Source: an uncultured Opitutia bacterium
GTDB taxonomy: Bacteria; Verrucomicrobiota; Verrucomicrobiia; Opitutales; Opitutaceae
NCBI GenBank assembly: GCA_903862955.1
Contig: CAIPAH010000024.1
Span: 310,001 to 374,000 of the forward strand
Direction: 5' to 3'
DNA length: 64,000 bases
The position numbers and the translations under genes are program-made. The notes under the pieces were generated by a model. That model was given only the letters and a program-made list of their open reading frames with translations. It did no database searches and was not told the origin of the DNA. Positions 10,715 to 15,333 of this stretch are shown one piece after another; the stretch's first letter is position 1, and every line of letters begins with the position of its first letter.

Positions 10715-12928
10715 CTAGCTCACTCCCCGCACTGGGCCAGCCTCTTCTCCAAGAGCGCCCGTTCCGCCGGCAGGGTCGCTAACTCCAGCGCGTGGCGAAG
10801 GCGCTTGGGACAGCGCTGGCGTCGTCGCCACCGGGCCGGTCTGCGCCACGATGCGGCCGGCGTTCAGCTCGATGATGACATCGGCGGCGGCGAGGAGCCG
10901 CGGGTTGTGGGCGGCCACAACGATGGTCCTGCCCGCATCGCGAAGTTTTTGAAGCACGCGGATGAACGCTGCCTCAGCCTCGGCGTCGAGGGCGGACGTC
11001 GGTTCATCCAACAGCAGGATCGGGGCGTCGCGGTAAAGCGCCCGCACCAAGGCCAGCCGCTGTCGCTGGCCGCCGGAGAGGTTGGCGCCATTTTCATTGA
11101 GAAAAGTGAAAAATCCCTGCGGCAGCTGCTCGATGAACTCCAAGGCTCCCACTTCGCGCGCCAGTTGCACGACGCGCTGGAGATCGGGCTCGGCGTCGCC
11201 GGCGGTGAGGTTTTCCAGGATCGTCCCCGAGAGCAGGTGCGTCTGCTGGGGCACCACGGCCAGATGCCGGCGCAGGCTCGCGAGTTGGAAATAGTTGAGG
11301 TCCGTGTCGCCGAGGAGAATCCGCCCTTCATTCGGCAAATACAGCCGCTGCACGAGCGCCAGCAGCGTGCTCTTCCCGCAACCGGACGGGCCCGCCAGCA
11401 CCGTCAGCCGCCCGGCCGGCAGCGTCAGCGCGAGATTGTGCAGCGTGGGTTGCCGGCCGGCGTGTTTGAACGTGACACCCTCGAAGCGCAGGTCGGCCGT
11501 GCCGGCCGGATTGCAGGCGATCGTCCCCTGGTCTTTTTCCAGTTCCAGGTCCATGATTTCAAAGAGGCGGTCGGTGGCGATGAGGGTTTCCTGGATGGTG
11601 CCGTTGAGGCCGAGCAGCGACGTGAGCGGCCCGGTGAGATAGCCGGCGAGGGTGTAACACGACATGAGCGTCCCCGGCGTCAGGCTGGCATCGAGCACGA
11701 GCCCACCGCCAATCCACAGCAACGCCACGAGGTAGGCCGAGGTGACCAGCGTGCCGGCGGTGTTGGTGACGAGCGCGGCGATGGACGCGCGCCACACGGT
11801 TTTCAGCACTTGCACGAGGCGGATCTCGGATTTCAGGGCCTCGGACGTTTCCAGCTGGAAGCGGCGGATGCTGGGCTGGGCATGGAGCGACGTGACGAGT
11901 TGGGCGTCGAAGTCCGCACCTCGTTCCATCAGCAAGCGCTGGTAGGTGCGGTTGCGCCAGTTGATGAACCAGTACAGCGCGGCGTTCAGCGGCAGGAGCG
12001 CGAGTGAAAGCAGCGCGAGGGGCCACGAATAAAAGAACATCGCCGCCAGGGCGAAGAGCAGGATGAGGGGATTCAGGACGAGATTGAGCAGCGCGGTGTT
12101 GAGGAAATTCCGGATCTTCACGGCGTCGGCGACACGCGACGTGATCTCCCCCACCCGCATGGTGTCGAAGAACGGCTGCGGCAGGCGCAGGAGATGGCCG
12201 TAGTAGGCCAGGATGAGCGTCGCATCGATGGCCTGCGCCGTGCGGAGGGAGAGCAACGACTGGCCCACGCTGAGGACGAGCTTGAAGCCAAGCACCACCA
12301 GCATCGCGACGCCCAGCAGGTTGAGCAGCGGACGGTTTCCGTCGGGAATGACCACATCCACGATTTTCTGGACGTAGATGGAGGTGGTCAGCGCGAGCAC
12401 CGTGGACAGCACCGCGCCAACGAACGCCTGCGCAAATACGGAGCGATGGGGCCGGAGGAGGCTCCACAAGCGTCGCGCCGGCGAGGTCGAATGTTCTCCC
12501 GGCCGAAAACGCTCGCCTGGCGCCAGCAGGATCAGGATGCCGGTCCAGGCGGACTTGAATTTCTCGTGAGTCCACCTTTCCACCCGGCCCACGGCCGGGT
12601 CCATCACGTCGGCGTGCGCGGGCGTCCACGCAACCAGGACGACGTAGTGCAGGCGCCGCTGATCCATCAGGCAGTGGGCGATCGCCGGCAACGGCACGGT
12701 CCGGAGCGCTTCCGCGGGTCCCTTCACACCCTTGGCGGTGAAACCCAGCTGTTGCGCCGCCTCGACCAAGCCCAACGCAGTCGAACCGATGCGATTCGTG
12801 CCCGTCAGCTGCCGCAACCGGGCAATCGACAAAAACGCGTGGTAATGCGCGCCGACGAAACGGAGACACGCCGCCCCACAATCGGTAGCATCGCGCTGCC
12901 GAAAAGTTCCTCTGCCGAGCCTCGACAT
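10715..12928 (-). CDS. peptidase-containing ABC exporter (C39 peptidase, double-glycine peptide processing)
   Basis: A 737-residue exporter that should cut substrates after a double glycine and pump them across the inner membrane. N-terminal C39 peptidase: 'QRDATDCGAACLRFVGAHY' holds the catalytic Cys, 'RRLHYVVLVAW' the His and 'VMDPAVG' the Asp, so it looks active. A six-helix membrane domain (about 165-430) follows. The ATPase shows Walker A 'GPSGCGKST', signature 'LSGGQRQR', Walker B 'ILLLDEPTSALD' and switch His 'VVAAHN'. It lies downstream of two genes for small peptides with GG leaders and an HlyD-like adaptor. No outer-membrane TolC-type channel is in the window. Confidence 0.93.
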   Translation of the reverse strand: MSRLGRGTFRQRDATDCGAACLRFVGAHYHAFLSIARLRQLTGTNRIGSTALGLVEAAQQLGFTAKGVKGPAEALRTVPLPAIAHCLMDQRRLHYVVLVAWTPAHADVMDPAVGRVERWTHEKFKSAWTGILILLAPGERFRPGEHSTSPARRLWSLLRPHRSVFAQAFVGAVLSTVLALTTSIYVQKIVDVVIPDGNRPLLNLLGVAMLVVLGFKLVLSVGQSLLSLRTAQAIDATLILAYYGHLLRLPQPFFDTMRVGEITSRVADAVKIRNFLNTALLNLVLNPLILLFALAAMFFYSWPLALLSLALLPLNAALYWFINWRNRTYQRLLMERGADFDAQLVTSLHAQPSIRRFQLETSEALKSEIRLVQVLKTVWRASIAALVTNTAGTLVTSAYLVALLWIGGGLVLDASLTPGTLMSCYTLAGYLTGPLTSLLGLNGTIQETLIATDRLFEIMDLELEKDQGTIACNPAGTADLRFEGVTFKHAGRQPTLHNLALTLPAGRLTVLAGPSGCGKSTLLALVQRLYLPNEGRILLGDTDLNYFQLASLRRHLAVVPQQTHLLSGTILENLTAGDAEPDLQRVVQLAREVGALEFIEQLPQGFFTFLNENGANLSGGQRQRLALVRALYRDAPILLLDEPTSALDAEAEAAFIRVLQKLRDAGRTIVVAAHNPRLLAAADVIIELNAGRIVAQTGPVATTPALSQAPSPRAGVSDPAGGTGALGEEAGPVRGVS

Positions 12929-13030
12929 CCGCTCAGCCGCTCATTTGCCAGCGCAGCCATGAAGGGTCCAGCTGCGCATCCGAGGGGAAGGCGCGTGAGT
13001 CGGCCACGGCAGATTGCAGGTGAAAGGGGG

Positions 13031-13459
13031 CTACGGCTGCTCTCGATTCCCGTGGCGAAGCTTCTTCGCCAAGAGCGGCAGGATGATGGCCAGCAAGAGC
13101 CCCAAACCAACGCCGGCGCCGACATTCCTGAGCGCGAGGCCGACCGCCAAGCCAATCACCAAACCGGCGGGATGCAGGACATACGCCGCGGGCTGGGGCC
13201 CAATGAGCCGATCCTTGGCTTCCTGGTAGCCGATACGGTGGGCCTTCCCGTAACAGCGGATCGCCATATCCCGGTGACCCGCCGCCAGCAGCCGCTGCGC
13301 ATCCTCGTCCGTTTCGGTCCCGGGCTTGGGGTAGACGCCGGCCGCGACGAGGCGGCGTTGCTTGCGCGAAACCATGATCCTGTCCGCGGCCACGATAATC
13401 AATCCGCCCAGTACCGCCCAGGCCAGCACCCACTCCACAACAAAGGTCCAAGTGTTCAT
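13031..13459 (-). CDS. small membrane protein of the peptide-export island (possible immunity protein)
   Basis: A 142-residue protein I do not recognise. One hydrophobic helix lies at the N-terminus ('VVEWVLAWAVLGGLIIVAAD'), a soluble central part contains 'DAQRLLAAGHRDMAIRCYGK' (a short helical pair somewhat like a TPR/Sel1 turn), and a hydrophobic glycine-rich hairpin precedes a basic tail. A good ribosome binding site, GGAGG seven bases before the ATG, supports the start. It sits between the peptide genes and the exporter on the same strand, where immunity or accessory proteins are often found. That role is inference from position only. Confidence 0.65.
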   Translation of the reverse strand: MNTWTFVVEWVLAWAVLGGLIIVAADRIMVSRKQRRLVAAGVYPKPGTETDEDAQRLLAAGHRDMAIRCYGKAHRIGYQEAKDRLIGPQPAAYVLHPAGLVIGLAVGLALRNVGAGVGLGLLLAIILPLLAKKLRHGNREQP

Positions 13460-13506
13460 CTCTATTCCTCCGTTTGAATCTTCACTTACTTAATGTTCGA
13501 CACCGG

Positions 13507-13542
13507 TAAAAAGCGGGGCTCAGCGCTGTGCCCAAGCCCCGC
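13507..13542 (-). terminator. intrinsic terminator after the first double-glycine peptide gene
   Basis: Read on the minus strand, an eight-base arm GCGGGGCT, a 14-base loop and the exact complement AGCCCCGC are followed by TTTTT. It lies just after the stop of the 13553-13777 gene. It could limit read-through to the exporter so that peptide mRNA is made in excess. Confidence 0.75.
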
Positions 13543-13552
13543 CGGTTTTCAC

Positions 13553-13777
13553 TTACTGGGAAACGCTCAAGCCGTAGCCCACAAACGCGTCGCCGGCAAG
13601 TCCAACGGCACCCGCCGCGCAGCACATCAGGATCCCCGCGCCGACCGGCGCCAACAGGATGCAAAATGCGACGCCGATGGCGATTCCACCCACCGTGACC
13701 GCGTCGCTGCTGTTGAGTCCGCCCAGCGTCGCTTCGAGTTCCTTTTCCGAGAGCACTGTCATTGTATCAGTTTTCAT
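13553..13777 (-). CDS. double-glycine-leader peptide, bacteriocin-like, hydrophobic core
   Basis: A 74-residue precursor. The leader ends 'TVLSEKELEATLGG', matching the L-S-x-x-E-L-x-x-x-x-G-G pattern cut by C39 peptidases. The 54-residue core is strongly hydrophobic and glycine-rich ('VGGIAIGVAFCILLAPVGAG') with GxxxG-type spacing and three cysteines, two adjacent. Unlike most class II bacteriocins, the core has no Lys or Arg and carries two Asp, so it is acidic. It is followed by its own terminator. The exporter and adaptor encoded nearby are the expected processing and export machinery. Activity, whether bacteriocin or signal, is unproven. ATG 13777 is used; 13762 is an alternative. Confidence 0.8.
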   Translation of the reverse strand: MKTDTMTVLSEKELEATLGGLNSSDAVTVGGIAIGVAFCILLAPVGAGILMCCAAGAVGLAGDAFVGYGLSVSQ

Positions 13778-13852
13778 ATCTAGGGTTTGGTTAACACTTA
13801 CACAGGATTTCGGGTTATATCTTCGAGTCAGAGATTCGGTTCTTTTGCCTGG

Positions 13853-14011
13853 TCAGTCCGACACATGCGCCGTTCTCCGCGGCTCGAAGAGCGCGAGGAG
13901 CGAAGCGATGTAGTTTTCGTAGGAAAGGGGCATCAGGTAGCTCGGCGGCAAATCGCCGTAACCTTCCCCTCCTACAACAATGGCCAGCTCAGATTCGGCC
14001 AGTTTGTTCAT
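13853..14011 (-). CDS. second double-glycine-leader peptide, tyrosine/proline-rich core
   Basis: A 52-residue precursor. The leader is 'MNKLAESELAIVVGG', with the same L-x-x-x-E-L-x-x-x-x-G-G pattern as its neighbour. The 37-residue core begins 'EGYGDLPPSYLMPLSYENY' and is rich in Tyr, Pro and Leu, unlike the first peptide. ATG 14011 is preferred because AAGGA lies five bases upstream. An in-frame ATG at 14029 would add six residues (MNPRKN). It lies 44 bases after the HlyD-like gene. The two dissimilar cores may act together, as in two-peptide systems, or one may be a signal. I recognise no family. Confidence 0.78.
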   Translation of the reverse strand: MNKLAESELAIVVGGEGYGDLPPSYLMPLSYENYIASLLALFEPRRTAHVSD

Positions 14012-14055
14012 GTTTTTCCTTGGGTTCATCGCGGCGGGATTGCCGCGAAGGTGGG

Positions 14056-15333
14056 TTACGCGGACGCCGGTCCCTGCCGGGGATCGAGCCACTTCGACGC
14101 GTCCTCGTAGAAAATTTGCAGCAGGCTGCGGCGGGCGACGACGAAGCGCGCGGTCAGCGTCATGCCCTTGCGCAAGGCCCCGCGAACGCCGCTGGGCAGG
14201 CGCAAGTCGAGTGCCGCCGGCTGCACGACGACGCGGAACGCCGCCTGCGTCCCGCTCGTGGTCGCATCAGCGCCCACGCTCTCCACCCTGCCGTCCAACA
14301 GGCCCCACTCGGTGTAGGGATACGCATCGATCTGCAACCGCACCGCCTGTCCCACGCGGATCAGGCCGATGTCCTTGGGCGACACGAATGTCTCCACGCA
14401 CAGCGGATCGGCGGGTGAAACAAACCCCAGCGATTGACCTGCGCCAACGTAGGTTCCCGCGGCCAGCCCCACGAGGCCTTGCACCGTGCCAGCCGCTGGC
14501 GCGCGGATGACGGCCAGGCCGAGTTCCTCCCGCAAACGCTTTTCCTCGGACACCAGTTGGTCTCGCGCGCTCACCTCGTCGCGGAGCTGCGACTGCCAAG
14601 CCGCGAGGGTTTGATGAATGAGAACGTCCAGGTCCGACACGGCCCGGTCGCGCGCATAGCGGGCATCGTCGCATTCCTGGGCCGTGACGATGCCCTTGGA
14701 TGCCAGCGCCCTCGTCCGGTCGTAGCCGGCGGTCATCTTCCCGATGGTGAGGCGATTGGCGTCCAGCTGGGCGACAAATTGCGCGAAGACCCGGGAGAGC
14801 GCCGGAGTCTGCACCCTCCGCAGCAGTGGTTCCAGGTTTGCCGAGGAGGCCTCCGCCCGAGCGGCGTTGGCCAGGCTGCCGGTAATCAACTCAAGATCAC
14901 CCAACATTCCGGTTTTCTCCTGCTGGAGCGCACGATTGCGGGCCAGCCGTTCGGCCGCGTCGCGCGCCGTCAATTCCAGGAGAGGCTGGCCCGCCTCCAC
15001 CTGCTCGTTGTCGTGCGCCCAGACCCGCTCCACGTGTCCGCCCAGTGCGGACTTGATTTCCGCCCGCTCGCTGGCCGGCCTGACCATGCCCGCGGAACGC
15101 ACGGTCACATCCACTTGGAGCAGGGGCAGCACGCCCACGGCTGCTCCCACCGCCGTCAGGCTGATCCAGTAAATCCAGGGCCGCCGCCGACCGTGCATCG
15201 CGTAGAGGCTTTCCACGGTCTGGTCCGCCAACGCGGCGGAAAGAAGCGGCTGAGACGAAAGGGACATGTGGCCAGTGGGAAGAGTTGGGCGCCGACGCGA
15301 CAACGCGCGGCCGTGCTCCGTTCGTGAATCCAC
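14056..15333 (-). CDS. HlyD-like membrane-fusion (adaptor) protein
   Basis: A 425-residue periplasmic adaptor linking the ABC exporter to an outer-membrane channel. A cytoplasmic N-terminus precedes one membrane helix ('WIYWISLTAVGAAVGVLPLL'). A first half-lipoyl segment is 'IKSALGGHVERVWAHDNEQV', a long helical hairpin spans about 115-260, and the second half-lipoyl is 'AVIRAPAAGTVQGLVGLAAG', followed by the beta-barrel. The start is probably the GTG at 15333, since GGAGGG lies seven bases upstream; ATG 15267 is an alternative with no clear site. It is the first gene of the peptide-export island. Confidence 0.9.
   Translation of the reverse strand: MDSRTEHGRALSRRRPTLPTGHMSLSSQPLLSAALADQTVESLYAMHGRRRPWIYWISLTAVGAAVGVLPLLQVDVTVRSAGMVRPASERAEIKSALGGHVERVWAHDNEQVEAGQPLLELTARDAAERLARNRALQQEKTGMLGDLELITGSLANAARAEASSANLEPLLRRVQTPALSRVFAQFVAQLDANRLTIGKMTAGYDRTRALASKGIVTAQECDDARYARDRAVSDLDVLIHQTLAAWQSQLRDEVSARDQLVSEEKRLREELGLAVIRAPAAGTVQGLVGLAAGTYVGAGQSLGFVSPADPLCVETFVSPKDIGLIRVGQAVRLQIDAYPYTEWGLLDGRVESVGADATTSGTQAAFRVVVQPAALDLRLPSGVRGALRKGMTLTARFVVARRSLLQIFYEDASKWLDPRQGPASA

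Follow-up and report, generated by a model that had tools for sequence, protein, structure and literature searches.

Peptidase-containing ABC transporters (PCATs) export the core of a precursor peptide that their C39 domain cleaves behind a double glycine (GG). PCAT1 and ComA (4ry2, 8hf4) are Gram-positive exporters with a C39-TM-NBD architecture and no HlyD protein. Class IIb bacteriocins of the lactobin A/cerein 7B type (TIGR03949) combine a GG leader and short hydrophobic Gly/Ala-rich cores with a C39 exporter. In cyanobacteria, GG peptides are clustered with a C39 ABC exporter and HlyD, and the Gram-negative double-glycine leader consensus is M(R/K)EL-x3-E(I/L)-x2-(I/V)-x-G(G/A) (PMC3140520). 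Bacteroidetocin regions, also small and Gram-negative, comprise a GG-leader peptide, a peptidase/ABC exporter and a TM protein, and toxicity was shown experimentally (PMC6671954).

Here we describe a cassette of this already known type in an uncultured Opitutia bacterium of the Opitutaceae (Verrucomicrobiota), located in a 64-kb stretch of its genome, hereafter the window. Unlike the Bacteroidetocins, it is known from its genes alone. Our search of the open-access literature (subscription papers lay outside it) found no description of GG-leader peptides or loci in Verrucomicrobiota, in keeping with the view of the initial annotation that such systems are poorly described in this phylum.

Layout and export machinery of the cassette

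Every part named by the initial annotation was found where it had been placed, all on the minus strand:

10715..12928, minus strand: C39 peptidase-containing ABC exporter, 737 aa, with the Pfam domains C39, ABC_membrane and ABC_tran
13031..13459, minus strand: 142-aa membrane protein, candidate immunity protein by position only
13513..13542, minus strand: terminator-like hairpin between pepG and the membrane protein gene
13553..13762, minus strand: pepG, GG-leader precursor with leader MTVLSEKELEATLGG and core LNSSDAVTVGGIAIGVAFCILLAPVGAGILMCCAAGAVGLAGDAFVGYGLSVSQ; alternative start ATG 13777
13853..14011, minus strand: pepY, GG-leader precursor with leader MNKLAESELAIVVGG and core EGYGDLPPSYLMPLSYENYIASLLALFEPRRTAHVSD
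14056..15267, minus strand: HlyD-family periplasmic adaptor, 403 aa from ATG 15267; alternative start GTG 15333

Read from 15267 down to 10715, the order is HlyD adaptor, pepY, pepG, hairpin, membrane protein and C39 ABC exporter, so that pepY precedes pepG in transcription order. A dnaX-like gene lies before HlyD, and a GNAT acetyltransferase gene follows the exporter. Compared with the cyanobacterial clusters, the cassette lacks a modifying enzyme, SurA and a second ABC protein.

The exporter matches Peptidase_C39 with 98.4 bits (E 3.8e-28) and aligns with PCAT1 over nearly its full length (residues 9-695, E 6.7e-120), with the catalytic Cys17 and the His and Asp positions kept; it also aligns with ComA. 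It thus carries the N-terminal C39 domain, with Cys, His and Asp, fused to TM and ATPase domains that defines PCATs. With the NCBIfam bacteriocin_ABC model TIGR01193 it scores 393.2 bits, below the cut-off of 523.85. Its sequence places it in a divergent PCAT subgroup. It is the sole full-length C39 exporter of the genome, as other ABC matches begin at query residue 143 or later.

In contrast to the Gram-positive PCAT1, ComA and class IIb systems, the cassette includes a Gram-negative HlyD-type export route. The adaptor matches Pfam HlyD_3 (57.1 bits, E 3.6e-15, cut-off 22.2) and HlyD_D23 (43.5 bits, cut-off 30), and several candidate TolC-like proteins are encoded elsewhere in the genome.

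The hairpin has a G+C-rich stem of 11 bp and a TTTTT tail. Its fold energy is just moderately better than that of shuffled sequences (z -1.74), making it a likely, unproven terminator. As a conserved feature of such cassettes a terminator was discarded: one lies right behind the peptide genes in just two loci, those of the window and L149 (L numbers denote related loci).

Leaders and cores of the two peptides

The leaders of pepY (from 14011 downwards) and pepG (from 13762 downwards) are canonical, 15 residues each, with the short N-terminal L-x3-E-L-x4-GG form next to a C39 exporter, and they agree well with the Gram-negative consensus (PMC3140520). They are not a chance occurrence. The pattern M-x2-L/F-x3-E-hydrophobic-x4-GG has exactly two matches in the whole 3.6-Mb genome, pepY and pepG, and the window holds two ORFs of leader form where Markov-shuffled windows predict 0.15. 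An out-of-frame control on the same genome gave three chance matches. The two tiny leader-bearing genes of the initial annotation were thereby borne out. Comparison with homologues speaks for the internal ATG starts (14011 and 13762) rather than the longest frames.

Both cores are new. That of pepY has 37 residues, among them 4 Tyr and 4 Pro, and was rightly called Tyr/Pro-rich; it contains no Cys, a difference from the Bacteroidetocins. That of pepG has 54 residues and is hydrophobic, with 10 Gly, 3 Cys and no Lys or Arg, as first described. The further description as GxxxG-rich was wrong, since pepG has a single GxxxG motif, below the shuffle mean of 1.55, and pepY has none; enrichment in this trait of two-peptide bacteriocins was ruled out. 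The predicted structure of pepG is of low confidence (pLDDT 63.5) and gives a mere hint of two hydrophobic helices. Neither peptide matched any bacteriocin model, TIGR03949 (cut-off 21.5 bits) included, and neither core matched an NCBIfam precursor family, which also sets the cassette apart from the cyanobacterial clusters. Typical class II bacteriocins are cationic, and the uncharged or acidic nature of pepG counts against a bacteriocin.

The peptides might instead be secreted signals, i.e., quorum-sensing pheromones that share the processing and export route but are not toxins. PCAT-exported GG peptides also act in cell-to-cell communication (PMC7018657), and the pepY leader matches ComC weakly (E 0.2). 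However, the cassette in the window includes neither a histidine kinase nor a response regulator gene, the cores are long for pheromones (and one is very hydrophobic), and relatives have peptides in this slot that score as class IIb bacteriocins (see below). We regard signaling as unlikely; it ranks second, behind a bacteriocin cassette.

The two peptides differ in their conservation. pepY has a homologue in a sister species of the same genus (L144, 9067-9222), identical at 24 of ~52 positions, leader included, with the common frame GDLP...YIA..LAL..P.R..H..D and a core z of 9.9 against shuffles; a profile search found pepY in these two genomes only. For pepG, a sequence search of 200 family genomes returned only weak, chance-like matches (best E 0.002). 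Hydrophobic Gly/Ala-rich peptides resembling pepG are present in L146, L092, L147 and L155; Lys and Arg are likewise missing from those of L146 and L092, which occupy the same slot, the likeness being distant. Conservation of the small frames beside the exporter, on which the initial annotation staked its proposal, is seen for pepY; pepG has distant look-alikes only.

This separate evolution would fit a single active peptide with an accessory one, e.g., pepY as inducer and pepG as toxin, rather than a two-peptide bacteriocin, as would the three or more GG peptides found in each of L093 and L144. Against this, L144, L146, L092, L147, L148 and L153 each have at least two dissimilar GG peptides next to one another, and we consider such a division of roles improbable.

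Related cassettes and turnover of the slot

A related exporter is present in 27 of 252 family genomes and, in a wider sample of 286 genomes of the class (E 1e-100), in members of the Opitutaceae only. A tree of 63 exporters places the close Opitutaceae copies in a single group with good support (99/97) and separates them from the exporters of Bacteroidota and other phyla. The succession of HlyD, at least one GG peptide and exporter is kept in 12 close loci (L144, L146, L092, L093 and L147-L154), with one HlyD cut short at a contig start; HlyD proteins in this place are 43-65% identical to that of the window. L155 has a GG peptide after the exporter, and L094 has one before it and no HlyD match. 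The cores thus change fast while the exporter and the slot stay.

Elsewhere, other peptides occupy the slot; two of them, from L144 and L093, pass TIGR03949 with 24.9 and 22.9 bits. L144, L093 and L151 share a recurring trio made up of an 'NWxxFKxGL'-type peptide, a peptide of 'DIG/DLG' type and a short protein with a single membrane span. The end of this last protein is a similar W-x-x-[FI]-K motif, which raises the possibility of a likeness between the peptide and the putative immunity protein.

Immunity genes are usually located just before the exporter. In that position, many relatives encode small membrane proteins of ~40-70 aa (L144, L151, L153, L154 and L092) or larger multi-span proteins (L093 and L148). 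The L093 protein is borderline Rce1/CPBP-like (22.3 bits against a Pfam cut-off of 22.4), and Rce1/CPBP-like proteins are linked to bacteriocin immunity. The 142-aa protein of the window is unlike all of these, was not found in any other cassette and matches no known immunity family. Its predicted helices, of moderate confidence, comprise an N-terminal TM, a bL12-C-terminal-like helical segment and a C-terminal hydrophobic pair. It belongs to a family of small membrane proteins with such a segment in scattered Opitutaceae genomes (window 13031-13459, L160, L161 and L162), whose L161 member passes the L7/L12 C-terminal model PF00542 (Ribosomal_L12). None of its relatives in other genomes adjoins an exporter; their location elsewhere rules it out as a conserved cassette part and is a point against a bacteriocin. 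Because it differs from the proteins of the related cassettes and its kin lie outside them, position is what suggests that it may protect the producer. Likewise, the expected recurrence of the layout was confirmed in 12 relatives for HlyD, GG peptide(s) and exporter; one fixed five-gene layout is unsupported, as the membrane protein of the window was found in no other cassette.

Within the genus, the exporter is present in 3 of 12 members examined (the window's genome, L144 and L145), in each case near mutY. The other nine have kept mutY and have no exporter at the threshold used. An ancestral dnaX-mutY site into which the cassette was inserted was not supported, mutY being near dnaX in 0 of 5 other genus members examined. 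At L145 (L145/L016), a lone exporter stands by mutY with its C39 part gone and HlyD and peptides absent, a sign of decay; in sister species, the cassette is decayed or absent. The cassette of the window could by analogy be a remnant in decay that no longer functions. Its frames are all intact, however, its exporter has kept the C39 catalytic positions and both leaders are canonical, which makes a remnant highly improbable.

L093 (G261:C11:93000-107000) is rearranged: pieces of HlyD and of the exporter C39 part are repeated, with a new GG peptide after each HlyD end. This looks like duplication of the slot adding new peptides. Patchy presence, decay and this partial duplication are consistent with a locus that is often gained and lost.

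Two further observations concern other loci. Several related cassettes encode, between the peptide genes, a large protein (~365-650 aa) that seems to carry a signal sequence (L092 4018-6297; L146 1813-2910; L093 2367-3485 and 5258-7015; L017 2713-4665). The copies have motifs in common and match no Pfam family beyond weak TPR, possibly representing an unrecognized cassette-linked family. In Dyadobacter (L019 126-947), five near-identical GG peptides are encoded in tandem upstream of an exporter.

Proposed function

Of the secreted antimicrobial or signaling pair initially proposed, secretion by the C39 ABC/HlyD system is well supported by the unique leaders, the single cognate exporter and the layout conserved in 12 relatives. 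Between the two roles, the genomic evidence favors the antimicrobial one: same-slot peptides of two relatives pass the class IIb model, the exporter is conserved amid turnover of the cores, and the usual immunity-gene position is taken by a small membrane protein of variable type. The TIGR03949 matches are the strongest of these arguments, an indirect one for pepY and pepG, which pass no model; pepG further departs from that class in its three Cys and lack of Lys and Arg. Taken together, the cassette is probably a bacteriocin cassette of class II type (GG leader) whose cores change fast.

Two unmodified precursor peptides would be made. The C39 domain of the exporter would bind the LxxxELxxxxGG leader and cleave after GG, the ABC part would pump the core outward, and the HlyD adaptor would link the exporter to a TolC-like channel of the outer membrane, encoded at another genomic site. 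The hydrophobic core of pepG would probably insert into a competitor's membrane, either by itself or together with the Tyr/Pro-rich one, and the small membrane protein may shield the producer. More speculatively, and in what we consider an unlikely reading, these could be Opitutaceae-specific two-peptide bacteriocins, pairing a Pro-rich acidic peptide with an uncharged, Cys-bearing, Gly/Ala-rich membrane peptide, with immunity conferred by a recruited membrane protein with a bL12-C-like segment.

Peptide-based competition is little described in Verrucomicrobiota. With some twelve natural variants, in which the cargo varies beside a stable exporter, this compact locus is open to experiment; it lends itself to studying the tolerance of C39 exporters for new cargo and the diversification of bacteriocin cores.
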